From: Flaviflexus salsibiostraticola
GTDB taxonomy: Bacteria; Actinomycetota; Actinomycetes; Actinomycetales; Actinomycetaceae
NCBI RefSeq assembly: GCF_003952265.1
Contig: NZ_CP034438.1
Span: 806,001 to 870,000, forward strand
Direction of reading: 5' to 3'
Length of the DNA stretch: 64,000 nucleotides
The position numbers and the translations under genes were made by a program. Below are positions 5,304 to 62,381 of this stretch, one piece after another. Below the pieces are notes generated by a model. It searched no databases and was not told where the DNA came from. It saw only the letters and a program-made list of their open reading frames with translations. The stretch's first letter is position 1, and each line of letters begins with the position of its first letter.

Positions 5304-5355
5304 TCCGCGATTGAGTGGGAGTTGCGAAACCAGCACTCCGAGGAAGGCCCTCCGT

Positions 5356-6342
5356 ATGTCCCACGCTAATGCAGCCCTGACCCCTCGCGCCCGTTTGACC
5401 GTCGCCCGGCTCGTCGTCGACCAGCAGGTGCCGATTGCCGAGGTCGCGGCTCGGTTCCAATGCTCCTGGCCGACGGTCAAACGCTGGGCCGACCGCTACA
5501 GGTCTGGTGAGTCCATGCAGGACCGTTCCTCTCGCCCGAAGACCTCGCCCCACCAGACCCCGTTGAAGATCAGAAGACGAATCGTGAGCCTGCGGCTGCG
5601 GCTACGGGAAGGACCGGTCCAGCTGGCCGTCCGGGTCGGGCTGGCACCCTCGACCGTTCATCAGATCCTGCGCCACTGCCGACTGAACAGACTCGCTCAC
5701 GTAGACCGCGCCACCGGGGAGCCGGTGCGCCGCTATGAACACCCCCACCCCGGCTCGATGATTCACGTCGATGTGAAAAAGCTCGGCAACATCCCCGACG
5801 GCGGCGGCTGGCGCTTCGTCGGTCGCCAACAGGGAGGCCGCAACCGCATAGCAACGCCGGACAAGGCCCGCAACCACCACCACAACCCGAAGATGGGCCA
5901 CGCCTTCGTCCACACCGTCATCGATGACTACTCCCGCGTCGCCTACGCCGAAGTCCACAATGATGAAACCGCTCTCACTGCCGTCGGGGTGTTGGAGCGG
6001 GCCACAGCCTGGTTCAACACCCGAGGCGTCACCGTCGAAAGAGTGCTCTCCGACAACGGTCCGGCCTACCGCTCGATACTATGGCGCGAAACCTGCGCCA
6101 GGCTGAAGATCACAGCAAAACGGACCCGCCCGTACCGACCCCAGACCAACGGGAAGATCGAGCGCTTCCACCGCACCCTGGCAGACGGGTGGGGCTACGC
6201 CCGCTGCTACACCTCAGAAACCGAGCGACGAGACGCCCTACCAGGATGGCTGCATCACTATAATCATCACCGACCCCACACAGCCTGCGACAGGCTCGCC
6301 CCAATCACCCGCTTAACCAACCTCCCCGGACAGTACAGCTAG
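5356..6342 (+). CDS. IS481-family transposase, copy 1
   Basis: 328 residues from ATG 5356 (MSHANAALTPRARL). A TTG-started extension from 5311 is possible. An N-terminal HTH (VPIAEVAARFQCSWPTVKRW) is followed by an rve/DDE core: IHVDVKKLG (Asp), VLSDNGPAYRS (Asp), QTNGKIERFHRTL (Glu). The frame is intact although the upstream leader is split by IS256. The last codons cross the element end: the TAG stop is in the target duplication GCTAGT, not in the IS. The gene runs opposite to the interrupted IS110 transposase. Confidence 0.92.
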   Translation: MSHANAALTPRARLTVARLVVDQQVPIAEVAARFQCSWPTVKRWADRYRSGESMQDRSSRPKTSPHQTPLKIRRRIVSLRLRLREGPVQLAVRVGLAPSTVHQILRHCRLNRLAHVDRATGEPVRRYEHPHPGSMIHVDVKKLGNIPDGGGWRFVGRQQGGRNRIATPDKARNHHHNPKMGHAFVHTVIDDYSRVAYAEVHNDETALTAVGVLERATAWFNTRGVTVERVLSDNGPAYRSILWRETCARLKITAKRTRPYRPQTNGKIERFHRTLADGWGYARCYTSETERRDALPGWLHHYNHHRPHTACDRLAPITRLTNLPGQYS

Positions 6343-10650: not shown

Positions 10651-10681
10651 CAGAGAGCCCGGCTATCAGCCGGACTCTCTG
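10651..10681. terminator. Stem-loop upstream of the GNAT gene
   Basis: The arms cagagagcccggct and agccggactctctg pair over 13 of 14 positions around a short loop. No T-tract is obvious on either strand. It marks the boundary between the conserved segment and the accessory island. It could be a terminator left over from a tRNA or other gene on the minus strand. Confidence 0.5.
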
Positions 10682-10989
10682 TGCGATCCACTGGATCTGT
10701 GGTGGACGCGGGTGGACTCAAACCGAACACCTGGCAGCGGTTCGAGCGGCTGAGTTCCGCGTGGAATCAGGCGAGACTGGGTATCAGCGATGAGCCAACG
10801 GGCGACTTCGAGGCAGAATCCGGCGTGGTCACGAAGCCAAGGGGACGAGCTAGAACACCGTTGACGGAGAGTGAAGTGGACTCTATCCGAACTGCCCGGA
10901 TGAACGGCGAGAGCGTGGTGTCAATCTCGCGGCGGTTCGACGTGCACCGGATGACCGTATGGACGCACACCAAGGACTTGATGTCGTAG
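10681..10989 (+). CDS. Small HTH protein or recombinase C-terminal remnant
   Basis: An open frame of up to 102 residues; the true start is uncertain. Only the C-terminal 50 residues are recognisable: RARTPLTESEVDSIRTARMN followed by VVSISRRFDVHRMTVWTH. This is the Hin-type helix-turn-helix found at the end of serine recombinases. No catalytic domain is present. It may be a decayed recombinase tail or a small free-standing HTH gene at the island edge, 109 bp upstream of the restriction-modification gene. Confidence 0.4.
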   Translation: MRSTGSVVDAGGLKPNTWQRFERLSSAWNQARLGISDEPTGDFEAESGVVTKPRGRARTPLTESEVDSIRTARMNGESVVSISRRFDVHRMTVWTHTKDLMS

Positions 10990-11098
10990 CCGGCTCCGGA
11001 ACGCGCCCGCAACGCCTCGTGGACATGTACCCCACCGGACGCAGGTTGATGCTATCATCAAGCCATGGGTTCATCGAGGCTACGAGCGTGAGGGCAAC

Positions 11099-13795
11099 GT
11101 GACAGGCAGCAAGTTTGGGCAGCTCGCGGATCTCGGCAACGAGTCCAGTGTCGAGCAGTTTTTCGTCTCCCGCTTGCTGAAAGACCTTGGTTACAAGGAC
11201 AGTCAGATCAAGCCGAAGGCAAGTATTGATGAACTCAAGATCTCCAGAGGTCGCAAGAGTGAGAAGTGGCGACCCGACTACGCGGTAATCGTCGGCAGCA
11301 AGGTCCGCTGGATCTGCGAAGCGAAGGGCGTGGAGGAGAATCTCGATGACTGGGTTGGCCAGTCGCAGAGCTACTGCCTCGCACTCAACAGCACCCAACC
11401 GGACAATCCGGTCGAGTTTTTCATGCTCACGAACGGTGTCACTACGCGCGTGTACCGATGGGACGATTCAACTCCAATCACCGAGGCGTCATTCGGCGAC
11501 TTCGTAGACGGGAATCAGGCATACTCGAGCATCCGCACCCTGCTCGCACCCGAATCATTCAAGGCCGCACCGGCGTCAGATCCGGTAGCCGAAGGTGAGC
11601 ACATTCTTCGACGACGCTCGGTCTCTGATCTGAACTCCGACTTTGCTTGGGCTCACCGGCTAATCTACAAGCGGGATAATCTGAGTTACAACGCGGCCTT
11701 CATGGAGTTCGTTAAGGTCATCTTCCTCAAGCTTCACTCTGATCGAGAAGCGCACGCCGATCCGAATTTGCGAGAACTTGACGACAAGTCCATAGTGGTC
11801 CCCGCTGAGGCCGTTAAGTTCTCGTCCGCGTGGATCAAATCCCGCGAGGCCGACACGCCGAGCCCACTCGACTCGATTCTTTTCCAGAAACTGCTGAGCG
11901 ACTTCGAGATCGCAATCACGAATGGGCGCAAGAAGCGCATATTCCCAAAGGGCGAGCGACTACTTCTCTCCCCTGACACGCTTCGCGTCCTTGTCGGTCG
12001 ACTGGAACACGTTGACCTCATCAGCATTGACGCTGATCTCAACGGCCGCATGTTCGAGACGTTCCTCAACTCGACACTCCGAGGGAAGGCCCTCGGGCAG
12101 TATTTCACTCCTCGTAGCGTTGTGAAACTCGCGACAGGACTGGCGCAGTTGCGCGCAGATGATAAGCATATCGACCGGGTGATCGACGCGTGCTCGGGAA
12201 CCGGGGGCTTCCTCATCGAAGCTCTCGCTGACATGTGGTCGAAGCTTGACGCGAATGCTTCACTATCGAACAAGCGCCGCGAAGAGCTTAGGATGCAGGT
12301 GGCCGAGCGATCACTGATCGGCGTTGATGTGGCACGCGACCCTGCGCTCGCGCGCATTGCCCGCATCAACATGTATCTGCATGGAGATGGCGGCACAAGT
12401 GTTTATCAGCTGGATTCCTTGGACAAGAAGGTCTCGCCCCATCCGACTGATGAACCGGAAATCGTTCAGGAGAAGGCAGAGTTTCGAAAGCGCCTGAAGG
12501 AGGCCTCAACCGCTTCTGGAGGCTCCGAGCCTCTCGGGTTGGCCGACGTCGCCCTCACAAACCCTCCATTCGCGAAGGAGTACACCCGCGACGAGGAGGG
12601 CGATGCGAAACTCCTAGATGACTACATGTTGTCGTATGACACGAGCGGAGGCGCAAAACGGCCGCTCAAGTCCCTCAGCTCGATGATCATGTTCCTCGAA
12701 CGCTACTTCGATCTACTTGGCCCTCGTGGTCGGCTCGTGACGGTCGTAGACGATAGCATTCTCGGTGCTCCGAGACACAAGAAGGTACGTGAGTGGATTC
12801 GGAAGAACTGGATCATCCGCGCGGTCGTGTCGCTGCCTGGCGATGCGTTTCAGCGGTCCCAGGCGCGAGTCAAGACCTCGCTCATCGTGCTAGAGAAGAA
12901 GTCCTCCGAGGACGAGATCCAGCCCAACGTGTTCATGTACTACTGTTCATGGGTCGGAGTTGACGACCCATCCCGTCAGCGGATACTTCCAGTAGATGCC
13001 GAGAATCGCGAGCGGGCTCGCAAGGAGATCGAGCAGGTCAGCGCGCTGTACCGAGCGTTCCAGGCAGGCCAACCTGAGGCCGTTCCCTGGACGGTAAGTG
13101 CCGCGTCAATCACCGACCGTTTCGATGTAAAGGCCTGTTTGCCGGAGGCGGAGGCGAGAGTGCCGGATTGGGAAGCGGCCGGCTTCACAATTCAGCCACT
13201 CGGAGAACTTCTCGAACTAGCCGTAAACGAGGAGAACCATGTCGATCGTGTGATTGACACGTCAACCACGGATGACCTCGTTACCTACCTCAGAGTGCGC
13301 TACGACGGCTTCTGTGAGGCCGGTGATGAAGTGGCCACCGTTGAGATCGCAAAACAGACCCTGACTCGCGTCCGAACTGGTGACTTCGTGTTCAGTCACA
13401 TCAACGCGATCCACGGTGCGGTAGCCGTGGTGCCAGAAGAGTATGACGGCCTGGTTGTCACCAACGAGTACACGGTCTGCAGACCAAGCAGCGACCTTAG
13501 TGCCAGCGTCATCTGGGCGCTTGTGCGATCGTCCGAAGCCCGCGCCGAGATGCTCCTACTTGCAACCGGAATCGGGCGGACCCGAGTTCGTTGGGACGAG
13601 CTAAAGAAGCTACGGCTGCCTGTACCAGGCGAGGAGGTGCGGAGTCGAATCGACGACGCAGTGAAGCGAGCAAACGAAGCTGAGGACGCCATGCGTCGCC
13701 TACGTGCCGAAGCGAGCCGCACGGCGTCGATCGAGATGCTCCTGGATAGCGAGCGCTCACGGTCAATAATCGCGGCGTTCAAACCACCCCGTTGA
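11099..13795 (+). CDS. Single-chain restriction-modification enzyme (R-M-S fusion)
   Basis: 898 residues, GTG start after gagg. An N-terminal PD-(D/E)XK nuclease-like domain has RPDYAVIV (Asp60) and WICEAKG (Glu74, Lys76). The central N6-adenine methyltransferase domain has motif I DACSGTGGF (about 363-371) and the catalytic NPPF (about 487-490). The C-terminal part (about 690-890) resembles a HsdS-type target-recognition half with a terminal helix (RANEAEDAMRRLRAEAS). This domain order matches type IIG or type I-like fused enzymes that cut and methylate with one polypeptide. No separate HsdR or HsdS gene is nearby. It is the first gene of the island cargo, 3 bp before the DUF5655 gene. Confidence 0.8.
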   Translation: MTGSKFGQLADLGNESSVEQFFVSRLLKDLGYKDSQIKPKASIDELKISRGRKSEKWRPDYAVIVGSKVRWICEAKGVEENLDDWVGQSQSYCLALNSTQPDNPVEFFMLTNGVTTRVYRWDDSTPITEASFGDFVDGNQAYSSIRTLLAPESFKAAPASDPVAEGEHILRRRSVSDLNSDFAWAHRLIYKRDNLSYNAAFMEFVKVIFLKLHSDREAHADPNLRELDDKSIVVPAEAVKFSSAWIKSREADTPSPLDSILFQKLLSDFEIAITNGRKKRIFPKGERLLLSPDTLRVLVGRLEHVDLISIDADLNGRMFETFLNSTLRGKALGQYFTPRSVVKLATGLAQLRADDKHIDRVIDACSGTGGFLIEALADMWSKLDANASLSNKRREELRMQVAERSLIGVDVARDPALARIARINMYLHGDGGTSVYQLDSLDKKVSPHPTDEPEIVQEKAEFRKRLKEASTASGGSEPLGLADVALTNPPFAKEYTRDEEGDAKLLDDYMLSYDTSGGAKRPLKSLSSMIMFLERYFDLLGPRGRLVTVVDDSILGAPRHKKVREWIRKNWIIRAVVSLPGDAFQRSQARVKTSLIVLEKKSSEDEIQPNVFMYYCSWVGVDDPSRQRILPVDAENRERARKEIEQVSALYRAFQAGQPEAVPWTVSAASITDRFDVKACLPEAEARVPDWEAAGFTIQPLGELLELAVNEENHVDRVIDTSTTDDLVTYLRVRYDGFCEAGDEVATVEIAKQTLTRVRTGDFVFSHINAIHGAVAVVPEEYDGLVVTNEYTVCRPSSDLSASVIWALVRSSEARAEMLLLATGIGRTRVRWDELKKLRLPVPGEEVRSRIDDAVKRANEAEDAMRRLRAEASRTASIEMLLDSERSRSIIAAFKPPR

Positions 13796-14254
13796 GCCGT
13801 GACTGACATCACTGAGTTCCTACGAGATGCGGCCGCATTCGCGGGCGTCACAACCGACGACATACTTGCGAAGGCGTTGCATATTGAGGATGGCGCGATC
13901 GCGCCGCTTGTAGACGGGATGGATGACACGACCAGAGCGCTCGTTGTTCGTCTGGATCGTGAACTTCGTATTCGAAATCCGGGTCTGCACTACGTGACAA
14001 GAAAAATGTTCATCGGCTATCGCAGAGAGGGCACCACGAGCACGCCCGTGGGCGAGAGGTCGCAGATCTTCGCAAGCATCATTCGCAGCCCCTCCCGTCT
14101 CGACGTGGTATTGCCGGTAGACCCGGATAGATTCGGTTCAATCCCCAACGCGAAGGACCTCCGGGGCAAAGGCCACCACGGTGTTGGTGACCTACGCGTC
14201 TCGCTCTACTCAGTCTCGGACATTGAATCGCTCTGGGTTTGATGGAGGCTCTTT

Positions 14255-15175
14255 TTATTTGATTCCGATCAGCACGTTGGGGGTGCTGGTAGCAGTGTAG
14301 TGGGTGTTCTCGAACTCGATCGGTGGTACGTCTCCGAGGTAGCCGTGAAGGCGTTCAGTGTTGTGCCAGTGGACCCAGCCCAGGGTGGCCAGTTCTAGAT
14401 CCTCGATCGTCTTCCACGGACCCGGATGTGCCGGCCCGCGCACGAGCTCGGTCTTGTAGTATCCGTTAACCGTCTCAGCCAGAGCGTTGTCGTAGCTATC
14501 GCCAACAGTACCGATCGAGGGAACAGCGCCGATCTCCGCTAGTCTCTCGCCGTAGCGAATGGACGTAAATTGACTGCCTGCATCGCTGTGACACCGAAGC
14601 CCGGGCAGGTGAGTCCCGCGCGACCAGCGGGCCATCTCGATCGCATCGAGGACCATGGGTGTGCGCATATGCGAGGCGACTCGCCAGCCGACGATCATGC
14701 GGGAGTAGACGTCGATGATGAAGCACACATACGCGATCCCGGCCCAGGTGGCAACGAATGTCAGATCGGTGACCCACAGCTGATTCGGGCCTGTGGCGGT
14801 GAAATCACGGTCGACCAAGTCAGGATGCCGAGGGACAGTCGCATCACGGTGAGTGGTTCGGACTTTCTTGGTCCGTCGTGCCCCTTCGATCCCTGCTGCT
14901 CGCATAAGACGGGCGGTCTGATCGCGGCCGATATCGATTCCCGCACGGCGTGCAGCCTTCCACAGCTTCCGCACTCCATAGACGCTGTAGTTCGCTTCCC
15001 ACAGCTCAAACAGCTGGGGAATCAGCTCCGCGTCCCGGATCGCACGAGCAGAGGGGCCACGTTTCTTCGCGGCGTAGTACGTGCTTGGAGCCACCTGCAA
15101 TACCCTGCAGATGGACTCGACTCCAAGACGGCGCCCGGCCACAATATCGTCCCTATTTAAGTCGATGAAGGCCAC
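14255..15175 (-). CDS. IS3 transposase OrfB (DDE catalytic part)
   Basis: 306 residues. The HTH_21-like start (VESICRVLQVAPSTYYAAK) is followed by an rve core with the catalytic residues: WVTDLTFVATW (Asp), CHSDAGSQFTS (Asp), NALAETVNGYYKTEL (Glu). The frame is -1 relative to OrfA, and the first GTG overlaps the OrfA stop. This is the usual arrangement for programmed -1 frameshifting to an OrfAB transposase. The frame is intact. Confidence 0.92.
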   Translation of the reverse strand: MAFIDLNRDDIVAGRRLGVESICRVLQVAPSTYYAAKKRGPSARAIRDAELIPQLFELWEANYSVYGVRKLWKAARRAGIDIGRDQTARLMRAAGIEGARRTKKVRTTHRDATVPRHPDLVDRDFTATGPNQLWVTDLTFVATWAGIAYVCFIIDVYSRMIVGWRVASHMRTPMVLDAIEMARWSRGTHLPGLRCHSDAGSQFTSIRYGERLAEIGAVPSIGTVGDSYDNALAETVNGYYKTELVRGPAHPGPWKTIEDLELATLGWVHWHNTERLHGYLGDVPPIEFENTHYTATSTPNVLIGIK

Positions 15176-15555
15176 TATTTCTTGTGTTGGCGGTCGAGTT
15201 CCGCCCCGAAGAAAGACGCTGCGCGTTTGAGGATCTCGTTGGCCCGGCGCAGCTCGCGGTTCTCCTGCTCAAGCTCGAGCAGACGGCGGGCCTCATCAGT
15301 GCTCACACCAGGGAGGTGGCCATCGTCGATATCGGCCTGACGCACCCAGGTGCGTACCGATTCTGGGCCGTATCCGAGCTGATCGGCAACTCTTTTGACC
15401 GTGCCGTTCTTCGTGCCCAGCTCTTTACGTAAGGCGCGCACCATGCGCACCGCTGCCGCCTTTTCCTCTGGTGAATACCGCCGCTGCGAGGCGCGTCCGG
15501 GATTGTTCATAACTGACATTATTCCATCCTTGTTTCCAAGCTCAGGAATCTCCAT
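15175..15555 (-). CDS. IS3 OrfA (HTH DNA-binding part)
   Basis: About 126 residues. The start is uncertain (TTG 15558, ATG 15555 or ATG 15519). An HTH_Tnp_1 domain (YSPEEKAAAVRMVRALRKEL, LGYGPESVRTWVRQAD) is followed by a leucine-zipper stretch (ARRLLELEQENRELRRANEI) that mediates OrfA/OrfAB multimers. It ends with aag aaa tag, where a -1 shift would fuse it to OrfB. Confidence 0.88.
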   Translation of the reverse strand: MEIPELGNKDGIMSVMNNPGRASQRRYSPEEKAAAVRMVRALRKELGTKNGTVKRVADQLGYGPESVRTWVRQADIDDGHLPGVSTDEARRLLELEQENRELRRANEILKRAASFFGAELDRQHKK

Positions 15556-15841
15556 CAAACCCAGAGCGATTCACATCGAACGCTTCCTGAGTGACTTCGA
15601 CTATTGGCTAAAGCCCAGTATTTAATCTCTTGATGCCGTGGAGGCTCGGGCTGGTCCGTCATGATGCTGTCTTCGCAGCGGGCAGCGATGAAGTTGGCAT
15701 GTGCTATCAGAAGTCGTAGAGGCGTTTTCGTGCATCGAACGCCGCACGTCCTCCTTCGAGCAGGTCTTCCGCGTACTTTCGGACCGTCTGTCGGCGGCAG
15801 TTGAATTTGGTGCATTTCCGGCGATCGAAAACTGAGCGGTT

Positions 15842-16591
15842 TTAGTTTACAGTTCCTTGTTCTTGTCGGTGTCTGATCCGGTAGGAGGTTCCTTTCGTGG
15901 TCAGGACTTGGGCGTGGTGGACGAGCCGGTCGATGATGGCTGTCGCAATCGTCTCGTCGTGGAAGATCGTGGACCAGGACCCGAAAGCGAGGTTTGAGGT
16001 GATCAGGATGGATGATTGCTCGTATCGGTCCGAGATGAGCTGGAAGAACAGGTTCGCGGCTTCTGGCTCGATGGGGAGGTAGCCGAGCTCGTCGATGATG
16101 ATGAGCTTGTAGCGGCGAATACGCCGCAGCTCTTTCGTCAGGTCTCCCTTGTTGTGAGCGGCAGTGAGCGACTGGATCCAGCCGGCTGCGGTGTCGAACA
16201 GGACCGGGATTCCGGCCCTGGTCGCGGCAATGCCGAGCCCGATCGATATGTGAGTCTTCCCGGTGCCTGGTGGGCCGAGAAGGATCATGTTCTCCGCGTT
16301 GTGGATCCAGGTCGAGCGTGATGCTGCTTGAACGTCTGAGCGCAGGTGGGGCTGGTGATCGAAGGTGAAGTCCTCAATCGTCTTCATGGACGGGAAGTGT
16401 GCTCGTTTCCGTCGTATCTCGGCCCCAGATGCTTCCCGGGCGGTGACCTCGGCTTCCAAAACCGCGGCTAAGTACTCCTCGAACGTCCAGCCCTGTGCCC
16501 GCCCAGTGTCAGCCAGGCGAGCGAAAGAAGCTTGAATACGTGGTGCTTTCAACGCACTCGTGTAGTACGTGACGTCTTTGATCGCCTCCAT
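15842..16591 (-). CDS. istB: IS21 helper ATPase IstB
   Basis: 249 residues of the DnaC-like AAA+ ATPase that activates and targets the IstA transposase. Walker A is LLGPPGTGKTHIS (about residue 105) and Walker B is KLIIIDELGYLP (about 165). The start ATG 16591 directly abuts the istA stop, so the two genes are translationally coupled. Complete and apparently functional. Confidence 0.93.
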   Translation of the reverse strand: MEAIKDVTYYTSALKAPRIQASFARLADTGRAQGWTFEEYLAAVLEAEVTAREASGAEIRRKRAHFPSMKTIEDFTFDHQPHLRSDVQAASRSTWIHNAENMILLGPPGTGKTHISIGLGIAATRAGIPVLFDTAAGWIQSLTAAHNKGDLTKELRRIRRYKLIIIDELGYLPIEPEAANLFFQLISDRYEQSSILITSNLAFGSWSTIFHDETIATAIIDRLVHHAQVLTTKGTSYRIRHRQEQGTVN

Positions 16592-17797
16592 TTAGGCCAC
16601 CTCGATGTCAAAGATCTGGTCATATACTGCCAGGTCCCCGCCCTGGACCGTCACTCCGTAGCCGGGCAGGCCCTGGCGCTGCTGAAAGGTCGCACGCAGC
16701 TTCCGAGCGGTCTCCACGTGGTCAGGGTCGGTCACCTGACCGCCGCTGCCCCAAAGACGCTCATGAGTCGTGATGACCTTCCCGCCCGTACTGACTTGGA
16801 CCGTCGACAGGTCCATGGTGACGTCGATGCGGTGCCCGATCCACCTGGGGTCAACACTGTAGGCGTTCGCGCCGATCTCGATGTAGTAGTCACGTCCCAA
16901 CCGCGTCTGCACAGTCCACCTCGCTGCGGGATCAACCGGCGGCAACGCACCCATATGCTCGAGCTCGACGGTCAGGCCCTGGCCCCGAGTTTGGTCTTTC
17001 CCTCGTGGTTTCTTCCCTCGGATCACCTCGAGCCAGCCGGCGAGTTGAGCATTGAAATCCTTGGGACTGGCGAACGTCCGCCCGGGCAGGAACGAGGTTT
17101 CCAGGTAGGAGTTGAACCGTTCGACCACGCCCTTGGTCTCCGGGTCATAGGGTTTGGCTTGGACGAGCTTCACTCCGAGGGTTCCACAGAACTCCGCGAC
17201 TTCCTGCCCGAGCTTGCCGTATCGTCCGATTCCGGCCTCGTTGTCCCACAATAGGCGTCGAGGAACCCTGCCAAAGGTGCTGATCCCGTCCCACATGCCC
17301 AACAGCAGGTCCGGGCGTTGCCGGCTCGGGATCATCAAGGCAACGGGATACTTTGACCAGGCCAGGATCATCGTCAGCACAGGGAAGCGTGCCGTCTTGC
17401 CGTTCCCGATCGGGATATCAACATTGGGGAACCACAGGTCACACTGAGCCACATCCCCGATCTCCCACTCCAACCGGTCCGCAGGATCGAGACGTCGTGG
17501 CGCATACTCAGGACGGATCCGTGCCACATTCTGCCGCAAGGCCCTCTCCGAGTAAGGCCAGCCCACCCGCTCGCCGATCACCGAGGCCGGCATCGTCGGA
17601 CACTCCTCCAGCAGCCACCGTATCCGGGCCTCATACTCCCCAAACTTCGTCGGTGTCCTCGTGCGGACATAACGCGGCGGCTGATCAGACTTCACCGCCC
17701 GATCCACCGTATTGCGTGAGATACCCAGCTCAGCAGCAATACGAGCCTTCGGTACACCCTCGCGGGCAAGCACCCGGATCTTTTCCCAATCGTGCAT
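16592..17797 (-). CDS. istA: IS21 transposase IstA
   Basis: About 401 residues from ATG 17797 (MHDWEKIRVL); ATG 17815 is also open. The N-terminal HTH (VPKARIAAELGISRNTVDRA) precedes an rve-type DDE core: VAQCDLWFPNVD, LLWDNEAGIGRYG and DPETKGVVERFNSYL. The C-terminal beta domain (NAYSVDPRWIG) is typical of IstA. Complete frame, same strand as istB. Confidence 0.92.
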   Translation of the reverse strand: MHDWEKIRVLAREGVPKARIAAELGISRNTVDRAVKSDQPPRYVRTRTPTKFGEYEARIRWLLEECPTMPASVIGERVGWPYSERALRQNVARIRPEYAPRRLDPADRLEWEIGDVAQCDLWFPNVDIPIGNGKTARFPVLTMILAWSKYPVALMIPSRQRPDLLLGMWDGISTFGRVPRRLLWDNEAGIGRYGKLGQEVAEFCGTLGVKLVQAKPYDPETKGVVERFNSYLETSFLPGRTFASPKDFNAQLAGWLEVIRGKKPRGKDQTRGQGLTVELEHMGALPPVDPAARWTVQTRLGRDYYIEIGANAYSVDPRWIGHRIDVTMDLSTVQVSTGGKVITTHERLWGSGGQVTDPDHVETARKLRATFQQRQGLPGYGVTVQGGDLAVYDQIFDIEVA

Positions 17798-18042
17798 TGA
17801 AATCACACTCCACATCGTTAATCGAAGTGCTCACTTTTCAAATGCCGAAACTGCTCACTTTTCAACTGCCGCCGACACCGTCGGGTCATCGAGCGATCCG
17901 ACGCCATCGGCCACTGTTCGCCCGTGCTGTCCATCGGCTTCGAGCGTTACAACCAAATCGGCGTCCCCAAGAACAGGAACATTAGCATTGTGCGTACTGA
18001 CAATCAGCTGCCGGCTTCCTTTCAACGATCGCAACTTCTGGA

Positions 18043-19489
18043 GGGTGAGTCCCTTAGTGTGGTGTAAATTCCTGCGGGGTTGCCAGCAACGGTGATGGTG
18101 AAGATTGTTGGGAGTCATCGTGGGAGACTCAAATGTTCGACCAAGATACAAGAAAGCGACATCCCACGATGACTCACCACCAGTCTGCCCTGACGACCCT
18201 GATTTCTGAAGTCCTCACCGACCCTGATCTTGCTCACAACGATGTCTTCCGCCGCCTGCTCCAGGCCGGCCTTCAAGATCTCATCGATGCTGAAGCCACC
18301 GTCAAGATCGGCGCTGGCCCTCACGAACGCACCCCTGACCGGGTCACTCACCGTAACGGCACCCGGCCCAAGACTCTTGCCACCCCGGCGGGGGAGGTTG
18401 ATCTACAGATCCCTAAGCTGCGTCAGGGCTCTTTCTTCCCGGCGCTGCTGTCCCCGCGCCGTCGGGTAGATAAAGCGCTTTATGCAGTGATCTGCCAGGC
18501 ATGGATCGATGGTGTCTCCACCCGCAAGGTTGATCACCTGATCAAAGCCCTGGGCAACGACACCGGTATCTCAAAATCAACCGTCTCGCGTATCTGTGCT
18601 GACATTGACGAGGGCGTGAGCCAGTTCCTGGGCCGGCCCTTGGATCACACCTGGTTCCCCTACCTGTTCCTGGATGCGACCTATCTCGACGTGCGTGTAC
18701 GTAACCGAGTCGTCTCTCAAGCACTTGTCGTAGCCACCGGCGTCAGCGGTGAGGGTAAGCGCGAGATCCTGGGGATGGCACTGGGTGATTCTGAGACCAC
18801 CGATTTTTGGACTGAGTTCCTCCGCTCCCTGCGAGAGCGCGGCCTGAAAGTCGCCACAAGCGCTGATCCGCTCGGGGTGGCGGTAGTGACCTCGGATGCT
18901 CATGCGGGGTTGAAAGCCGCAGTCAAAGCGATCCTGCCTGGAGCGGCTTGGCAGCGGTGCCGGGTCCACTTCGCCCGTAACATCACCCAACGAGTCGGCT
19001 CAGCCCGATCTAAGCCTGTCAACGCCCTGGTCTCAACGATCTTTGCTCAGACCACCGCGCAGGCTGTCAGAGCTCAATACCGCACCGTCATTGACGGTCT
19101 ATCTGGCTCGTTTCCCGAGGTAGCAGCCATGCTCGAACAGGCCGAAGCAGAGCTGACAGCTTTTGCTGACATGCCTCAAGAGCATTGGAAGAAGATCTGG
19201 TCCAATAATCCGATCGAGCGGTTGAATCGGGAGATCAAGCGTCGTGTTGACGTGGTCCAGATCTTCCCCGACCCTGCCAGTGTCACCCGCCTCGTCGGAG
19301 CTGTCCTTCAAGAACAGCACGAAGAATGGCTCTACGCCGAACGGCGCTACTTCTCCGAAGTCTCCATGCGAAAACTCATCCACACCCTCAACGCCCCCAC
19401 CGGGCAAACCGATCACCATCCCGGCCAGGAACTCTTCCTCACCGCCTAACCCAACCCCGAAAAGTTACACCACACCAAAGGACTTGACC
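18043..19489 (+). mobile_element. IS256-family (IS1081-like) element
   Basis: 1447 bp. Ends are GGGTGAGTCCCTTAGTGTGG and, read inward from the right, GGGTCAAGTCCTTTGGTGTG, both followed by TGTAA. It is flanked by the 8-bp duplication CTTCTGGA (18035-18042, 19490-19497). It splits the TrlF-type gene between the Walker B and H-loop regions. It differs in sequence from the IS256 at 3847. Confidence 0.9.
18169..19449 (+). CDS. IS256-family (IS1081-like) transposase
   Basis: About 426 residues from ATG 18169 (MTHHQSALTTL); ATG 18133 is an alternative. It contains the Mutator-type signature IPKLRQGSFFPALL and the catalytic pattern YLFLDATYLDVRV (Asp), VVTSDAHAGLKAAV (Asp) and WSNNPIERLNREIKRR (Glu). 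Intact frame. Orientation is opposite to the TrlF gene it interrupts. Confidence 0.92.
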   Translation: MTHHQSALTTLISEVLTDPDLAHNDVFRRLLQAGLQDLIDAEATVKIGAGPHERTPDRVTHRNGTRPKTLATPAGEVDLQIPKLRQGSFFPALLSPRRRVDKALYAVICQAWIDGVSTRKVDHLIKALGNDTGISKSTVSRICADIDEGVSQFLGRPLDHTWFPYLFLDATYLDVRVRNRVVSQALVVATGVSGEGKREILGMALGDSETTDFWTEFLRSLRERGLKVATSADPLGVAVVTSDAHAGLKAAVKAILPGAAWQRCRVHFARNITQRVGSARSKPVNALVSTIFAQTTAQAVRAQYRTVIDGLSGSFPEVAAMLEQAEAELTAFADMPQEHWKKIWSNNPIERLNREIKRRVDVVQIFPDPASVTRLVGAVLQEQHEEWLYAERRYFSEVSMRKLIHTLNAPTGQTDHHPGQELFLTA

Positions 19490-21891
19490 CTTCTGGACAA
19501 CTCCGTCGTAAACGAATCGGTTGTCTAGATCGTCCTCGGGTTGGTCGATGATCAGAGGGCTCATCGACGCTCCGAGCAGGAGCAGCAGGAGGGCAGTCGC
19601 TCGTTGGCCCTTCGACAGGTCTTCAAGGCGACGCCAGGTCGCTGGCTGACCTTTGACGGCGACGTTCAGCTGCACCTCCACTGCCAATCCCACGGTCTGC
19701 TCTTCGAACTCTCGGAACAGAGGTTCACCGCACTCGACGATGGCTTTCGCTTGAGCCCCAGTAATGCCGAGCGCAGAGATGGCGTCTAAGCCTGATCGCG
19801 CAGCCGCCACGAATGCCGCGACACTGAAGTCATCTTTATCGATGGCCGAGAATACTTGACTACGTTGGGTCGAAAAGTGCTTGGAGATCACCGCTTTGAT
19901 CTGGCTTCGATCCGGCGAGGCGATCGGCTTCACTATGACAGCACCCGCAGTTGCCTCGTTTGACGCTTTAATTGCCTTCTTGAGATCGGACGCAGTCTTC
20001 TTGTCGATATCGGAGAGCTGACGGAGCAACTTGGCTCGCACCTCCAGGAACTTCTTTTTTTCCTTATCGAAGACAGCCCGCTTTTCCGCTCGCTTCTTCA
20101 GCCGAATCAGATTTGACTGCAAAGTGAGGTACTCATCAGGCTTGTGCCCCTGTTCGACCAACTCACGCAGAACGGCCGCGACACCGTCGCTCTCAGTCTT
20201 GGTCCCGTCTTTCCAAGCCTGCTCGGTCGCTTCGATCTTCTTCTTCGCATCGTCAACGGCGGAACGCGCCGTTGCGGCAGTCTGCTCCAACACTTTGGCG
20301 AGCGCATCAAGCACTGGCTTGAGTTGCTGCAAAGTACCTTTACGTGGAGAGTCATCGACATCAGCGAGCTCAGCGCGAAGCTCTTCACTCAGGGCCTCAA
20401 GCCCCCATCCACTAGTGAAGTCCTCAACCTGCTGGACTCGCTCAGACGCCTCGGTGAGCACCGCCTCGTCCTTATCAAGCCGGGTCTTCTGGTCGAGCTT
20501 CGCAGCAAGGTCGGTCTTCTCGAAGGCTTCCATGCTCTCGGTAAGGCGCGGAATGTCTGCGAGTTCGTTCTCCAACGCTTCGCGATCCCGCTCGTGCTTA
20601 GCGAGATCGTCCCGGTTGTCGGCCAGGTCTTTCAGAAGCTGGTCTCGTTCGGCGGACGACGTTGGCTTTCCTGCCACTCTCGCGACCAGTTCGGCCATGA
20701 GATCTTTGTCCTGGGCCAGCTCGGCGAGTTCGTGTTGACCAAAGATCTCAAGGTTTCCGACAACATCGCGTGGCCGCTGACTTGTTTGCGTACCGCTGGA
20801 GTCACGGACTACTGCCGGGTTGTTGGTGATGCGCTCGATCGTGAAACGTGCGGGACTGGGAGTTACCACGTCCACAACAAGCGAGACTACCGTTCCAGCG
20901 CCAAGCACGTTTTTGACCATGTCTTTATGGTCATCACTTGATGCTTGACCGATAGGTGAAATCTCCAACACGTAGCGGAGACTTTCAATAGCAGTGGACT
21001 TACCAGTACCTCGACCGCCTATGAGCGCCGTGAGGTCTTCGGCAAGATAAATCTTCTGGCCGTCGAGGTAGCCGCCATCCCATGAAATCTCGCGGAGCAG
21101 GACGCGTGACGTCGATGCCGGATCGACTGTGCTAACCCGCGTCTCTGGTGTCTTCACTGCGTGGCGAAGTCCAAGCAAACTCGGACTACTCATCTTGAAC
21201 CAAGTGCTCGCACCAGCAGAGGTCAGAGTCGCAGGATCGGATACATCATCCGCATGAATGGCAACGAGCGAGTGCGGCCGATCGTAGGGCCTGGTGCCCT
21301 TGAGGATCTTGACCTGATCGCCAAGCGGGGCTGCAGAGGGGGTGATGCCGATGGTGAGTAAATCTGGGTGCTTAACCATCTCGGCGAGAGTGTCGCCCTT
21401 GGCTCGACTCAGGAGCCCGGCATTTGCGACGTTGGCATGCGCCGGAACAACTAAAGCGCCTTGCTCGCACATATCCGTCAGAATGTCGCCGTAAGACTTC
21501 TTCGTAGTCCCCTTCGCCGCACCGGGCGTCAACCCACAAGCGCCGATCGCCGCAGTGATCTGCTCAATCGCTGTGCCACGTTCGAATATCACCAGCAAGT
21601 GGATGCCTTCAGAGGTGTTCGCCTCGAAGCCAGGAAGCGCGACGATGCCTGCCGCCTCCACATCGACGATGAGCTGAGACGCACTACTCGCGTTCCAGTG
21701 GTCCGTGATCGCGATTAGCTCGATCTGCTGAGCCTTTAGTTCGGCGATCAGTGCAGCGTTGTAGGCCGCCTCATCGGCGAACGTCTTGGAGGGCGAATGG
21801 TTGCCAACATACCCGTATGGGTTCACCTGCAGAGCCGCACGAACCCAGCGCGCACCACGCGACCCGTCGTCTCCAGATGATTGTGTGCCAA

Positions 21892-21996
21892 TCACTTCAG
21901 CCACCGCCTCGCTCTGTCCCCACTGGAAGTATCCACACCAGATGGGCCTAAGAGCTGGGAGCCACCCTGTCCGGAGGCGTCCGCTTCTATCGACAT
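21892..21996 (-). CDS. 34-aa upstream ORF overlapping the TrlF start
   Basis: ATG 21996 follows a strong gaggagg site. The frame (MSIEADASGQGGSQ...RARRWLK) ends at a TGA that overlaps the GTG chosen for the TrlF-type gene as GTGA. That geometry is typical of translational coupling, so this may be a leader ORF setting TrlF expression. It has no recognisable domain. It could also be an N-terminal extension of TrlF put out of frame by an indel. Confidence 0.35.
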   Translation of the reverse strand: MSIEADASGQGGSQLLGPSGVDTSSGDRARRWLK

Positions 21997-22078
21997 GGAA
22001 CTCCTCCTCGCGAGCACGGTCACATATCATCAGTGTACGAGAGACACACGTCCTCGCGCAGGAAGAACAGACCCCCAC

Positions 22079-23166
22079 CTAGAGTCGGCGTACACGGTCG
22101 ATGCTCGGGCGCTGGAAGCTGTCGGTGCGTGTGCTGAGCTGCCGGAGGTGAGCGAAGGCGGACCGCGCTGTCCGGTGTTCGGCCGCTTGTTCGCGCGTAC
22201 GGACGCTCTGGACCTGTCCCAATGGCGAGGAGCCGGTCACCTCGTAGCGGTATCGATACAGCGCTATGGTGACCGCGTGCGCCTGCCACTGAATTCGCGC
22301 TCTTGGCTGGGTCGGAGGCTTGCCAAGTCGTGAGGCCCAGCTTGCTCCGACACGCTGTGCCTCATCTACGAGTCGCCTTGCGGCGGCTTCGATGAGTCTT
22401 TGCCGTTCAGTGAGTGCGGTCTGCATGTCGTCTGCGATCGGCTCGGCGGGCGTCGGGATGAGTCCGGCTACTCGTGCCCTGGTTCGTCTACCGGGCCGGA
22501 GTTTCTGGGTGGCTTGGTCGAGCATGTCGGCGAGCTGCCCGGCTGGGTCGGCCCGCCCCTCACCAGGAGTGAGCTTCGGTGCGAGCGCGGCGAGCGCAAC
22601 CGCTGCGAGATGTCCGGCGTCTTCGTGCCGGGCGAGCGCTGCTTCGAGGCGTTCGTAGTAGGGGCTGGTGAACACGTCGTCAGCCACGTTCTCGGGGAAC
22701 GGTGCGACGTCGAGCAGCGCGGCCCAGCGGTCGGTCTGTGCTTCGCGGGCGAGCACGTCGTACTCGGCCAGCAGCGTGGACAAGGAGGCGTGACGCTCTA
22801 CCTCGAGCTTCAGGGTTTCGGTGGCGGACAGGTCGGCATCGGTTCGGGCGAGTACCTTGGCGATCCGGTCTGTCAGGGCCAGCGGCTCGGGCTGGTCGAG
22901 ATGCGGCTCGACCTCGTGCGAGTCGGGCACGATGACGTAGGCGTGGTTGCGGTGCTTGCCTCGGGTCATGGCTACGTAGAACAACTCCCGTGATGATGCT
23001 TCGGGGTCAACGAGTGCGTGCGCGGTGTCGACGCTGGCTCCTTGGGTACGGTGAACCGTGGAGGCGTAGCCGAGTTCGAGTTCCTCACGGACATACTTCG
23101 CGGGCAACACGAGTGCCTTGCCCTGAGGTTGATCGCCGCGCCCCAACCGGCGCACAGCGAGAGAAC
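22079..23166 (-). pseudogene. MobF/TraA-type conjugative relaxase, C-terminal fragment
   Basis: The frame is open from the IS3 end at 23166 down to the stop at 22079, about 361 residues. It keeps the last helicase motifs of the TraA/TrwC RecD-like domain: YASTVHRTQGASVDTAHALV, and RELFYVAMTRGKHRNHAYV. A C-terminal region with coiled-coil content follows. The relaxase domain and Walker A part are missing to the right, replaced by IS sequence. It is evidence that the island came from a conjugative plasmid or ICE. It ends 183 bp upstream of the TrlF start, on the same strand. Confidence 0.85.
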
Positions 23167-23522
23167 TGAATCGTCCTGGGTTTGGTGGAGATTCCTGAGC
23201 TTGGAAACAAGGATGGAAGAATGTCACGTATGAACAATTCCGGGCGCCCTTCTCAGCGGCGGTATTCACCAGAGGAAAAGGCGGCAGCGGTGCGCATGGT
23301 GCGCGCCTTACGCACCGAGCTGGGCACGAAGAACGGCACGGTCAAAAGGGTCGCCGATCAGCTCGGCTACGGACCAGAGTCGGTCCGCACCTGGGTGCGT
23401 CAAGCCGATATCGATGACGGGCAGGCCCCCGGTGTGAGCACCGATGAGGCCCGCCGCTTAGCCCAACTGGAGCAGGAGAACCGTGAACTGCGCCGGGCCA
23501 ATGAGATCCTTAAGCGCGCAGC
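23167..23522 (+). mobile_element. Truncated IS3-family element
   Basis: Starts with the same terminal sequence as the complete IS3 at 14224-15573 (TGAATCGTCCTGGGTTTGGT) and covers orfA up to the IS30 insertion. The orfB half does not reappear beyond the IS30, so a deletion accompanied or followed that insertion. The flanking 50 bp at 24744-24793 match nothing I recognise. Confidence 0.85.
23185..23522 (+). pseudogene. IS3 OrfA fragment
   Basis: Encodes the HTH part (YSPEEKAAAVRMVRALRTEL, LGYGPESVRTWVRQAD) and zipper (EARRLAQLEQENRELRRANE) of OrfA, nearly identical to the copy at 15175-15555. It is cut after the Ala of EILKRAA by IS30. The apparent continuation to 23679 is IS30 sequence. OrfB is absent, so the element cannot move on its own. 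Confidence 0.85.
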
Positions 23523-24743
23523 GGTGGATTCAACCGGTCAGCGCAACAGTGCTTCAAGCCTATCGGCTGGGGTATCAAAACTGAGTGTCTTACGCGGTCG
23601 TGAGTTCAACCGTGCCGCCACTTTGTTGAGGTCGTCCTGGGTGAGATCTTTCATGCTCACGCCTTTGGGGAAGTACTGACGGAGCAGACGGTTCGTGTTC
23701 TCGTTCGTCCCACGCTGCCAGGGGCTGCGAGGGTCTGCGAAATACACGTCAAGCCCGGTGCTGCTCGTAACGGTCTTGTGGTCCGCGAGTTCCATTCCAC
23801 GATCCCAGGTGAGTGAGCGGCGCAGCTGCTCGGGCAGGAGATTCATCTCTCGTGAAAGGCCCGCAGTCACCGACGCCATATCGCGCCCATCTACGTGAAC
23901 GAGCACAGTGAACCTCGTCGCGCGCTCGACGACAGTTGCGATCTGAGAAACGCCCCGGCCGAGGAGAAGGTCTCCTTCCCAGTGCCCAGGAATCGCACGA
24001 TCCTCAGCTTCGGCGGGTCGCTCCGAGATCGATACGGCATCCTTGATCTGTGACCGCCACTGACCGGTCACCGTGTTGTGGATACTGCGCCGGATCGGGC
24101 GGCCTGATCGCAGATGCTTCTGCAGTTCCTTTGCTAGTACCCCGCGGGATTGAACATACAGAGACTGATAGATCGTCTCGTGTGACACCAGCATCCTGCT
24201 TCCCGCTGGGTAGCGCTTTTTCAGAGTCCCGGCAATCTGTTCTGGTGACCAGTCTTCCCGCAGACGTGCCGCGACGTACCTGCGAAGCACGGGGTTCTTC
24301 GCGAGTTTGCATTTCTTTGGTCGTTTGGCACGCCGCCAAGCACGATCGTCAGCGTCAACCCCGCGATACCTTGCCGCCCCTCGATTCTTTGCGATCTCAC
24401 GACTGATGGTCGATGCTGAACGGCCGAGTCGTCGTCCAATCGATCGGAGCGACTCACCAGCTGCAAGCCCCCTGGAAATCTCTTCGCGCTCATGAAGAGT
24501 TAGTGTGCCGGAGCGACGTCTTTGAGGCGGCTGATAGATCCCGCCATAGGGTAACAGGATCGAGAAGATTGAGCCTGGAGGGGAGCCCACGGTTCGACCG
24601 ATCTCGCTGATTGATGCCCCTGTCTTCCACATGTCCCACACTTGCTGCCGTCGATCCGACGGGAGTCCTGGTCTACCGATCTTTGCCACATCACACCTCT
24701 GAGTACATTATCGATGGTGTTGCGCTGACCGGTTGAATCCACC
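23523..24743 (-). mobile_element. IS30-family element
   Basis: 1221 bp with 25-bp perfect inverted ends starting GGTGGATTCAACCGGTCAGC. A target duplication cannot be defined because the left flank is IS3 and the right flank is different sequence. One complete transposase gene lies inside. Confidence 0.9.
23538..24689 (-). CDS. IS30-family transposase
   Basis: 383 residues. N-terminal HTH regions (ISEIGRTVGSPPGSIFSIL; LRSIGRRLGRSASTISREI) are followed by the DDE core: GHWEGDLLLGRG (Asp), LTWDRGMELADH (Asp), GTNENTNRLLRQYFPKG (Glu). Full length and intact frame for the family. Confidence 0.93.
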   Translation of the reverse strand: MAKIGRPGLPSDRRQQVWDMWKTGASISEIGRTVGSPPGSIFSILLPYGGIYQPPQRRRSGTLTLHEREEISRGLAAGESLRSIGRRLGRSASTISREIAKNRGAARYRGVDADDRAWRRAKRPKKCKLAKNPVLRRYVAARLREDWSPEQIAGTLKKRYPAGSRMLVSHETIYQSLYVQSRGVLAKELQKHLRSGRPIRRSIHNTVTGQWRSQIKDAVSISERPAEAEDRAIPGHWEGDLLLGRGVSQIATVVERATRFTVLVHVDGRDMASVTAGLSREMNLLPEQLRRSLTWDRGMELADHKTVTSSTGLDVYFADPRSPWQRGTNENTNRLLRQYFPKGVSMKDLTQDDLNKVAARLNSRPRKTLSFDTPADRLEALLR

Positions 24744-24900: not shown

Positions 24901-25994
24901 CCTACCGGCGTACGTGTGATATCTGCTCTGCTTCACTGAAGAAGAATGGCTACACCACAGCAGGTGCCCAACGGTTCCGATGCACTCGCTGCGGCAGCTC
25001 CACCACCCTGACCAAGCCGGCCCTGACCGACCGGCACGTGCTGCGCTGGTTCGTGTCCTGGCTCCTCGATAGCTTCGACCCGGCAACAGTCGGGATCTCA
25101 CCGCGCACGTTCCGGCGCAAGATCGCACACCTATGGCAGATCCAGCCGCGCCCAATCCTCACCGGAGAAGTCCATGACGTCCTCATTCTCGACGGGACAT
25201 GGATCGGGAACATGGTCTGCCTCATCGCCTCCAGCCCCACCCATGTCGTCGCCTGGCACTGGGCCACTCAAGAGAACGCCCACTCCTGGCAGGTACTGAT
25301 GGATACCCTGCCCCCACCACGCATCGTCGTCATTGACGGCGGCTCCGGCATCGCCAAAGCCCTGCGCGCCAGCTGGCCCACCACACACATCCAACGCTGC
25401 CTGTTCCACGTCTTCCTCAACGTCAAACGACAGACCACGTTCCGGCCCGTGTTCGGGCCCTCCAAAGACGCCCTGTCTCTGACCAGAGCCCTCATGCAAG
25501 TCACCACCCGCGACGAAGCCATCGCCTGGCAGAAAGAACTCGCCCGCGTCCACGCCCACCACAAGCCCACGCTCAACGAAAGAACCATCAGCCGGGACAG
25601 ATACGGCCACCCCACAACGGACTACACCCACCTGCGATCACGGCGAGCATTCGCAGTGCTGACCACACGGGCACGGGCCGGTGACCTGTTCACCCACCTC
25701 AACCCAGAGCTCCACGCAGTGACCGGCACAATACCGCGCACCACAAACCGGCTCGAGGGCGGAATCAACTCACCCCTCAAGGCGCTGATCGCCACACATC
25801 GAGGAATGCCACCAGCTCACCAACGCGCCCTGACCGACTGGTACCTGTACTACCGCACCGAAGCCCCCGAGGACCCCGCCACAACAGCCGCTCGCTACCA
25901 CGACCACCACGCCCACATCCGCGCCGACGCGGCACACCAACAGAACCAGCCCCGCCAATACGACACCGCCCTGGACTGGACAGAACTACGCTAG
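24888..25994 (+). CDS. IS1249-like transposase (IS256 superfamily)
   Basis: 368 residues. An N-terminal zinc ribbon (CDICSASLKKNG, RFRCTRCGSS) is typical of the IS1249 group. The DDE core shows VLILDGTWIGNM (Asp), VVIDGGSGIAKAL (Asp) and TTNRLEGGINSPLKAL (Glu). The stop TAG at 25992-25994 lies in the GCTAGA site where IS481 copy 2 inserted; both copies of the duplication retain CTAG, so the protein is unchanged. Confidence 0.88.
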   Translation: MPSPTYRRTCDICSASLKKNGYTTAGAQRFRCTRCGSSTTLTKPALTDRHVLRWFVSWLLDSFDPATVGISPRTFRRKIAHLWQIQPRPILTGEVHDVLILDGTWIGNMVCLIASSPTHVVAWHWATQENAHSWQVLMDTLPPPRIVVIDGGSGIAKALRASWPTTHIQRCLFHVFLNVKRQTTFRPVFGPSKDALSLTRALMQVTTRDEAIAWQKELARVHAHHKPTLNERTISRDRYGHPTTDYTHLRSRRAFAVLTTRARAGDLFTHLNPELHAVTGTIPRTTNRLEGGINSPLKALIATHRGMPPAHQRALTDWYLYYRTEAPEDPATTAARYHDHHAHIRADAAHQQNQPRQYDTALDWTELR

Positions 25995-26977
25995 ATGTAC
26001 TGTCCGGGGAGGTTGGTTAAGCGGGTGATTGGGGCGAGCCTGTCGCAGGCTGTGTGGGGTCGGTGATGATTATAGTGATGCAGCCATCCTGGTAGGGCGT
26101 CTCGTCGCTCGGTTTCTGAGGTGTAGCAGCGGGCGTAGCCCCACCCGTCTGCCAGGGTGCGGTGGAAGCGCTCGATCTTCCCGTTGGTCTGGGGTCGGTA
26201 CGGGCGGGTCCGTTTTGCTGTGATCTTCAGCCTGGCGCAGGTTTCGCGCCATAATATCGAGCGGTAGGCCGGACCGTTGTCGGAGAGCACTCTTTCGACG
26301 GTGACGCCTCGGGTGTTGAACCAGGCTGTGGCCCGCTCCAACACCCCGACGGCAGTGAGAGCGGTTTCATCATTGTGGACTTCGGCGTAGGCGACGCGAG
26401 AGTAGTCATCGATGACGGTGTGGACGAAGGCGTGGCCCATCTTCGGGTTGTGGTGGTGGTTGCGGGCCTTGTCCGGCGTTGCTATGCGGTTGCGGCCTCC
26501 CTGTTGGCGACCGACGAAGCGCCAGCCGCCGCCGTCGGGGATGTTGCCGAGCTTTTTCACATCGACGTGAATCATCGAGCCGGGGTGGGGGTGTTCATAG
26601 CGGCGCACCGGCTCCCCGGTGGCGCGGTCTACGTGAGCGAGTCTGTTCAGTCGGCAGTGGCGCAGGATCTGATGAACGGTCGAGGGTGCCAGCCCGACCC
26701 GGACGGCCAGCTGGACCGGTCCTTCCCGTAGCCGCAGCCGCAGGCTCACGATTCGTCTTCTGATCTTCAACGGGGTCTGGTGGGGCGAGGTCTTCGGGCG
26801 AGAGGAACGGTCCTGCATGGACTCACCAGACCTGTAGCGGTCGGCCCAGCGTTTGACCGTCGGCCAGGAGCATTGGAACCGAGCCGCGACCTCGGCAATC
26901 GGCACCTGCTGGTCGACGACGAGCCGGGCGACGGTCAAACGGGCGCGAGGGGTCAGGGCTGCATTAGCGTGGGACAT
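25991..26977 (-). CDS. IS481-family transposase, copy 2
   Basis: 328 residues from ATG 26977. Same HTH and DDE motifs as copy 1 (IHVDVKKLG, VLSDNGPAYRS, QTNGKIERFHRTL). The final residue is Ile instead of Ser because the last codon and the TAG stop come from the target duplication GCTAGA. Intact. Confidence 0.92.
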   Translation of the reverse strand: MSHANAALTPRARLTVARLVVDQQVPIAEVAARFQCSWPTVKRWADRYRSGESMQDRSSRPKTSPHQTPLKIRRRIVSLRLRLREGPVQLAVRVGLAPSTVHQILRHCRLNRLAHVDRATGEPVRRYEHPHPGSMIHVDVKKLGNIPDGGGWRFVGRQQGGRNRIATPDKARNHHHNPKMGHAFVHTVIDDYSRVAYAEVHNDETALTAVGVLERATAWFNTRGVTVERVLSDNGPAYRSILWRETCARLKITAKRTRPYRPQTNGKIERFHRTLADGWGYARCYTSETERRDALPGWLHHYNHHRPHTACDRLAPITRLTNLPGQYI

Positions 26978-27100
26978 ACGGAGGGCCTTCCTCGGAGTGC
27001 TGGTTTCGCAACTCCCACTCAATCGCGGAAGGCCCTCTCTTCACGTCACAAGTCAGCGCGTGTCATCGCACTGCCTCAACCAACCTGTCCGGTCAGTACA
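25996..27100 (-). mobile_element. IS481-family element, copy 2
   Basis: 1105 bp, flanked by GCTAGA (25990-25995, 27101-27106). It is nearly identical to copies 1 and 3. An 11-bp hairpin (26981-26991 with 27027-27037) precedes the transposase start. It is inserted at the stop codon of the IS1249-like transposase. Confidence 0.93.
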
Positions 27101-27143
27101 GCTAGACACGCCCAACCCAGACACACTTTTTGGCCTATAACTC

Positions 27144-27266
27144 TCACCGACGGCATCGAGATCAGCGAAGACGAAAGGGCGACGATCCGACTCGCTGAGC
27201 CCTTCGCCGCCCTCACACCAGAGCCGACATCGACTGATGTCAGGAGTTCTAGTACGTCTTCAATTG
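27144..27266. other. Unassigned strip between island and tRNA-Ala
   Basis: The plus strand is open (DGIEISEDERATIRLAEPFA...) but too short to assign, and no repeat of the tRNA 3' end was found here. It could be the last piece of the element that delivered the island. Confidence 0.3.
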
Positions 27267-27339
27267 TGGAGCTAAGGGGATTCGAACCCCTGACCTCTTC
27301 CATGCCATGGAAGCGCGCTACCAACTGCGCCATAGCCCC
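27267..27339 (-). tRNA. tRNA-Ala (GGC)
   Basis: A 73-nt cloverleaf on the minus strand. The acceptor GGGGCTA pairs with TAGCTCC, including the G3:U70 pair that identifies alanine tRNAs. The anticodon arm is CTTCC-ATGGCAT-GGAAG with anticodon GGC, and the T-loop is GGTTCGAATCC. CCA is not encoded. Its 3' end faces the accessory island. Confidence 0.95.
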
Positions 27340-61262: not shown

Positions 61263-61275
61263 CTGTACAGCTAGC
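61258..61275. other. IS481 excision-like footprint
   Basis: GCTAGC-TGTACA-GCTAGC immediately left of IS481 copy 3. TGTACA equals the first three plus last three bases of the element (TGT...ACA), and each GCTAGC equals the target duplication. This is what imprecise excision of an earlier copy would leave. Confidence 0.5.
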
Positions 61276-62257: not shown

Positions 62258-62380
62258 AAGGAGGGCCTTCCTCGGAGTGCTGGTTTCGCAACTCCCACTC
62301 AATCGCGGAAGGCCCTCTCTTCACGTCACAAGTCAGCGCGTGTCATCGCACTGCCTCAACCAACCTGTCCGGTCAGTACA
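61276..62380 (-). mobile_element. IS481-family element, copy 3
   Basis: 1105 bp, flanked by GCTAGC (61270-61275, 62381-62386), differing from copy 2 at only a few bases. It sits between the convergent DUF3515 and ddl genes, exactly where CTAG provides both stop codons, so neither protein is altered. Leader hairpin arms at 62261-62271 and 62307-62317. Confidence 0.93.
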
Positions 62381-62381
62381 G

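Follow-up and report, generated by a model that had tools for sequence, protein, structure and literature searches.

Do the restriction-modification (R-M) gene, the small gene and the TrlF-type ATPase gene that lie close together beside a relaxase in Flaviflexus salsibiostraticola form one defence system, or did they come from separate sources? The genes map to a 64,000-nucleotide stretch (G000:C1:806001-870000, within a complete genome of 2.61 Mb; hereafter, the window). A sequence-only reading of this DNA had rebuilt the genes around insertion sequence (IS) elements and suggested that R-M, DUF5655 and TrlF might constitute a single system. All of the pieces that it named, namely the R-M gene, the small gene, TrlF, the relaxase and the IS damage, are present where it had placed them. 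Their grouping is best explained differently. With a probability of about 85%, two mutually independent modules have been combined here into a mosaic, on a backbone linked to a relaxase. The host is an actinobacterium by protein comparison: a protein of the window shares 60-71% identity with its equivalents in six actinobacterial genomes that carry loci compared here, those of Bowdeniella and Actinomyces scoring best.

TrlF relatives were collected from GTDB contigs (best 80 of at least 538). The closest of those listed are found in an uncultured Schumannella MAG (L002, 97% protein identity) and in Microbacterium ihumii (L003, 90%). Both are intact and score 456.1 and 457.8 bits, respectively, on the NF045780 model (cut-off 350), whereas the window protein, its end being cut off, scores 343.9 bits. 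In the window, TrlF is split into three pieces, all on the minus strand. The main piece (19490-22078), which spans the PHP domain and the ABC-type ATPase, is 97% identical to residues 1-849 of the L002 protein, and its open frame extends to 19439 through the end sequence of an IS256-family element (18043-19489, plus strand; transposase 18133-19449). An internal piece (17877-18042; 93.4% identity to L002:12582-12747) lies between this element and an IS21-family element (15789-17876, minus strand; IstA 16592-17815, IstB 15842-16591). The C-terminal tail, with its stop codon at 15707-15709 and the adjoining spacer, occupies 15663-15788, as aligned with L002. When the pieces are aligned with the uninterrupted L002 gene, the flanks of the IS256 and IS21 elements overlap by 8 and 6 bases, respectively, as expected of target duplications. 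The last 75 of the 924 TrlF residues are thus separated from the rest. They include an STHNAN stretch, which we take to be the ABC H-loop.

Next to TrlF is the C-terminal fragment of a MobF/TraA-type relaxase (22079-23166, minus strand; TIGR02768 match), collinear with the 1185-residue TrwC-type relaxase of L002. The fragment is terminated by the remnant of an IS3 copy (23167-23523, plus strand), 88.6% identical, in inverted orientation, to 15217-15573. This remnant is interrupted in turn by an IS30-family element (23523-24743, minus strand; NF033563) with perfect inverted repeats of 26 nt. The other IS3-family element (14224-15573, minus strand; NF033516) encodes its transposase at 14255-15175 and 15175-15558 and is bounded by perfect 24-nt terminal inverted repeats (14224-14247 and 15550-15573). 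Five IS elements or remnants are consequently found between 14224 and 24743.

The L002 locus is free of these interruptions and features, in order, the relaxase, a 48-bp gap, the unbroken 924-residue TrlF, a 44-bp gap and a gene of 394 codons. The order is the same in L003, in which the relaxase frame is shorter; the two loci are 84% identical over 6.3 kb. The compactness and the relaxase link described earlier are borne out by the uninterrupted adjacency of relaxase and TrlF in both. The TrlF start that had been placed 183 bp after the relaxase agrees with that of database relatives of approximately 879 residues, although the longest L002 frame begins only 48 bp after the relaxase stop. In place of the complete relaxase that would define a mobilizable or conjugative element, the window has the C-terminal fragment; it is plausible that the island was cargo of a conjugative element and that the relaxase piece is what remains of it. 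Near the TrlF block of L002, a DUF7380-DUF4209 protein (L002:15116-16960) matches the PADLOC candidate PDC-S39 (E 3e-134), so the block may lie there in a richer defence region.

Homology between the window and the L002 and L003 loci extends past the TrlF stop and across the spacer into the 394-codon gene, of which it covers the first 13 codons (remnant 15623-15662, minus strand, aligned with L002:12868-12907), and ends at 15623. The 166 bases from 15623 to 15788 are 97.6% identical to L002:12742-12907. Homology resumes at 10984, beyond the end of the 394-codon gene, in a shared backbone (10701-10984, minus strand) with 82-83% identity to L002:14108-14390 and L003:14099-14382. As homology breaks off and resumes around this gene, the segment carrying the R-M and small genes, plus the later IS3 element (10985-15622, plus strand), sits in the gene's place. 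Both junctions, 10984/10985 and 15622/15623, were aligned against L002 and L003. Since the 394-codon gene holds the R-M position in the two nearest TrlF loci and 13 of its codons are left in the window, the R-M and small genes appear to have replaced the neighbour of TrlF. The locus offers a clean example of a restriction module standing exactly where a single gene used to be.

The replaced gene belongs to a familiar context. Among the best 80 TrlF loci, 68 have a called downstream neighbour, which carries SLFN_AlbA_2 in 48 loci and HATPase_c_4 in 46. The 394-residue proteins of L002 and L003 are weak AlbA_2 members: the Pfam match (E 0.0099) is below the cut-off, and a model built from the 48 other neighbours detects them at E 3e-5 and 4.7e-6. 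This arrangement fits the trlR-trlF-trlG (TRL) operon of Photorhabdus, which combines a TrlF-family ATPase with an AlbA_2 gene; TrlG carries both AlbA_2 and HATPase_c_4 (PMC7554251). In contrast, the domain scan of the L002 and L003 proteins found no HATPase_c_4 half, and the window, which retains 13 codons only, no longer has an AlbA_2/HATPase_c_4 gene beside trlF. TrlF/AlbA_2 pairing is, judging from the loci compared, common and not universal, and most TrlF relatives at the next distance do not have it. In actinobacterial loci L004-L017 and L049, no member of the AlbA_2-type family was found in the DNA covered (less than 1 kb downstream of TrlF in L005, L009 and L011), except upstream of TrlF in L016. 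A TrlF gene followed by an AlbA_2-type gene was also seen in contigs labelled with many phyla, including ANME-1 archaea (L018, L038); PMC7554251 describes TrlG as prevalent in proteobacteria. In the Vibrio parahaemolyticus plasmid pLH80-1 (L125, 323-12398), a BREX cluster has the order pglX, pglX, TrlF, TrlG-like, pglZ, brxL, and the 410-residue "RNA-binding domain-containing protein" next to TrlF scores 397 bits on the TrlG-like model.

As to function, temperature restriction is reported for the Photorhabdus TRL operon, where temperature tolerance results from mutations in trlG or from loss of the operon; the word phage does not occur in the paper (PMC7554251). The anti-phage protein Ppl (NF042955; PADLOC PDLC02208) has a related combination of PHP and ABC-ATPase. 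The L002 TrlF obtains 162 bits on the Ppl model, the cut-off of which is 1000 bits, and TrlF belongs to a different family.

The R-M gene (11099-13795, plus strand) has an intact frame of 898 codons, identified by Pfam, PADLOC and PDB sequence matches and by motif conservation. The domain order is an N-terminal PD-(D/E)XK-like HSDR_N, an N6 adenine methyltransferase and a single specificity-like domain. HSDR_N_2 matches residues 15-125 with 24 bits (E 4e-5), just below the cut-off of 25, the N6_Mtase match (E 4e-24) is above the Pfam cut-off, and residues 743-871 at the C terminus resemble type I specificity proteins. Nuclease, methyltransferase and target-recognition domains are thus combined in one chain, as in single-chain Type II (IIB/IIG-like) enzymes. 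P59, D60, K76, G369 and G370 are invariant in the 115 homologues longer than 850 residues among the best 120 listed, and E74 is conserved in 72%. More than 20 database homologues listed are 85-89% identical across the whole length. The protein is most likely a working single-chain R-M enzyme.

The closest solved relative by sequence is the Type IIB enzyme RM.BsaXI (PDB 8w0p; E 1e-18 over residues 310-610). Its RM component is likewise one chain, of 916 residues. In contrast to the window protein, in which the specificity-like stretch is part of the same chain, BsaXI assembles as (RM)2S, with S as a subunit of its own (PMC11997821). The gene that follows the window R-M encodes a DUF5655-like protein instead of such a subunit. 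The best NCBIfam match is to MAD2 of the MADS system (NF047738), and its 185 bits are far under the cut-off of 720; MAD5 specificity (NF047740) matches the C terminus at E 1.4e-4, far under its cut-off of 400 bits.

The small gene (13799-14242, plus strand; 147 codons) begins 3 bp past the R-M stop. Its 3' end was removed by the IS3 element and is read directly from the sequence on the far side (15574-15625, plus strand). The spacing between the converging stops of the small gene and TrlF is exactly 81 bp (15626-15706), as had been reported. The DUF5655 label held in a loose sense only. The Pfam model PF18899 finds no match in any of four genomes or records, even at E<=10, and a Pfam scan of the window, Gordonia and Aeromicrobium small proteins gave no PF18899 match. 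A profile of the small-protein family (63 database proteins, including that of the window) is nonetheless similar (probability 97.6, E 2.7e-12) to that of seven DUF5655-bearing proteins. The three of these that were scanned (L116, L118 and L119) match PF18899 above the cut-off, and the similarity resides in their DUF5655 half. The small protein can accordingly be placed in a wide-sense DUF5655 superfamily, to which its link is remote. In the NucS_C-DUF5655 proteins, DUF5655 follows a NucS_C-like nuclease domain; in the window protein, it follows a short helical N terminus. None of the papers in the collection searched names DUF5655.

The pairing of the two genes recurs outside the window. The closest R-M proteins found (56-87% identity overall) are encoded by Gordonia hongkongensis plasmid p2 (86.5%), Aeromicrobium yanjiei plasmid p001 (62%) and genome G007 (56%), and the small gene adjoins the R-M gene in three of the four loci, i.e., the window, Gordonia p2 and Aeromicrobium p001. 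At the G007 locus, a six-frame scan of 19 kb revealed no small-gene match at E<=0.01, and the pairing is therefore not universal. Two plasmid records contain relatives of the small protein, both being the R-M plasmids. A survey of 394 genomes from the class revealed a full-length R-M in two (G000 and G624), which are also the two that encode a close small protein. The G624 contig (51304 bases, identical coordinates and score) is none other than the Aeromicrobium plasmid, so the class genomes add no independent R-M case. The match in G584 is limited to R-M residues 275-601, and distant DUF5655-like matches occur in nine further genomes of this set. In database records, the longest contig of 23 of the 63 small proteins, including those of the window and Gordonia p2, has as many bases as that of an R-M homologue among the best 120, compared with 0.35 expected; expected counts were obtained by shifting the lengths by 1 to 50. 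Across these comparisons, the R-M and small genes emerge as the one conserved unit at the locus, and the small protein is most likely a dedicated companion of the R-M.

No comparable link to TrlF was observed. R-M is absent at E<=1e-10 from the genomes of L002, L003 and L006 (0/3), the TrlF proteins of which are 97, 90 and 48% identical to that of the window, and TrlF is absent at the same threshold from Gordonia p2, Aeromicrobium p001 and G007 (0/3). TrlF occurs in four of the 394 class genomes (G000, G453, G515 and G710), and coexists with R-M only in G000, the window's own genome. Longest contigs of equal size are shared by TrlF and R-M in 1/120 cases, compared with 1.06 expected (best 120 of each, the window's TrlF not being among the TrlF proteins listed). 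The small protein was found in none of 80 TrlF loci. Weak R-M matches (20-26% identity, E<=1e-3) were detected in four of the 80 (L006, L035, L065 and L067), indicating that a methylase-type gene is occasionally found near TrlF. TrlF and the small protein have longest contigs of equal size in two cases (0.23 expected), of 11979 and 5146 bases. The former is probably a coincidence, as the sources differ: the TrlF entry is an NCBI one (Kocuria subflava), whereas the small-protein entry stems from lgn. The latter consists of small protein P0027 and TrlF homologue P0218, and may be one contig. Linkage between R-M and TrlF is lacking in the sets examined.

These data bear directly on the proposal that R-M, the DUF5655-like protein and TrlF make up an undescribed three-part system, in which the ATPase would sense or act on DNA marked or cut by the R-M. 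The compact convergent layout favours it, as do the similarly lowered G+C content of the three genes (0.57-0.58, compared with about 0.65 around them) and the 5146-base coincidence. With the halves found apart in the sets tested, three close R-Ms without TrlF, another gene at the R-M position in the two nearest TrlF loci and R-M/TrlF contig sharing at chance level, we consider such a system very improbable. The sequence-only reading had itself named the absence of the trio from other genomes as the outcome that would count against it; for TrlF this is what was found, and only the R-M/small-gene half proved to be conserved. Compactness in one genome does not amount to linkage, and a plausible grouping is corrected accordingly. 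Two units are left. In one, a single-chain R-M of actinobacteria is accompanied by a conserved DUF5655-like protein; the other is a widespread TrlF/AlbA_2 (TrlG-like) pair, known from temperature restriction (PMC7554251) and found within BREX on at least one plasmid.

TrlF might otherwise be a roaming add-on beside any methylation-based system, in which case the newly arrived R-M would have become its partner after the loss of the AlbA_2-like gene. The BREX cluster of pLH80-1 and the four loci with weak R-M matches are in keeping with this idea, and the TRL cluster of Yersinia ruckeri pYR3 contains methyltransferase genes, according to PMC7554251. Genes upstream of TrlF include 6 N6_N4_Mtase (the commonest family), 4 ResIII and 2 N6_Mtase among 55; these are raw counts from TrlF loci alone, in which families can overlap per protein. 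No upstream family is comparable in dominance to those found downstream. The methylase families vary between loci and the window TrlF is broken by two IS elements, which makes a partnership here improbable. Somewhat less improbable, though still unlikely, is that the entire stretch is decaying, IS-ridden debris, the R-M being silent as well. The small gene, TrlF and the relaxase are all broken amid the IS elements, and 10681-14242 has no DNA match in five other genomes of the genus, which marks it as a sporadic acquisition. Against general decay stands the R-M frame, which is full length, close to its many listed homologues and intact in its conserved motifs.

The mosaic was probably assembled as follows. 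The ancestral block would have consisted of relaxase, TrlF and an AlbA_2-like gene, the last in the place held by TrlG elsewhere. A segment carrying the single-chain R-M and its dedicated DUF5655-like companion would then have replaced nearly all of the AlbA_2-like gene, in convergent orientation to TrlF; the 13-codon remnant suggests this direction of exchange. In the order of events that we infer, IS256, IS21 and IS3 subsequently split TrlF and clipped the small gene. TrlF is probably inactive in the window, given that it is cut off from its last 75 residues and has lost the neighbouring gene. The R-M is predicted to methylate adenine at a short site and to cut unmethylated incoming DNA, and the small protein may be an accessory or modulating subunit of the enzyme. 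Of the two modules, it is the R-M/small-gene pair that merits further attention. More tentatively, and at somewhat less than even odds, the two genes could represent an undescribed two-gene actinobacterial restriction unit, in which the small protein, YdhG/DUF1801-like in fold and faintly similar to the DNA-binding domain of T4 MotA, would be an obligate DNA-handling or activity-gating subunit.

The window also carries three IS481-like copies (5304-6342, 25987-27105 and 61266-62385) that are 99.4-99.7% alike, two of which flank the island in inverted relative orientation. To the right of the island, a tRNA-Ala gene (27266-27339) adjoins one of these copies and is a possible integration site.
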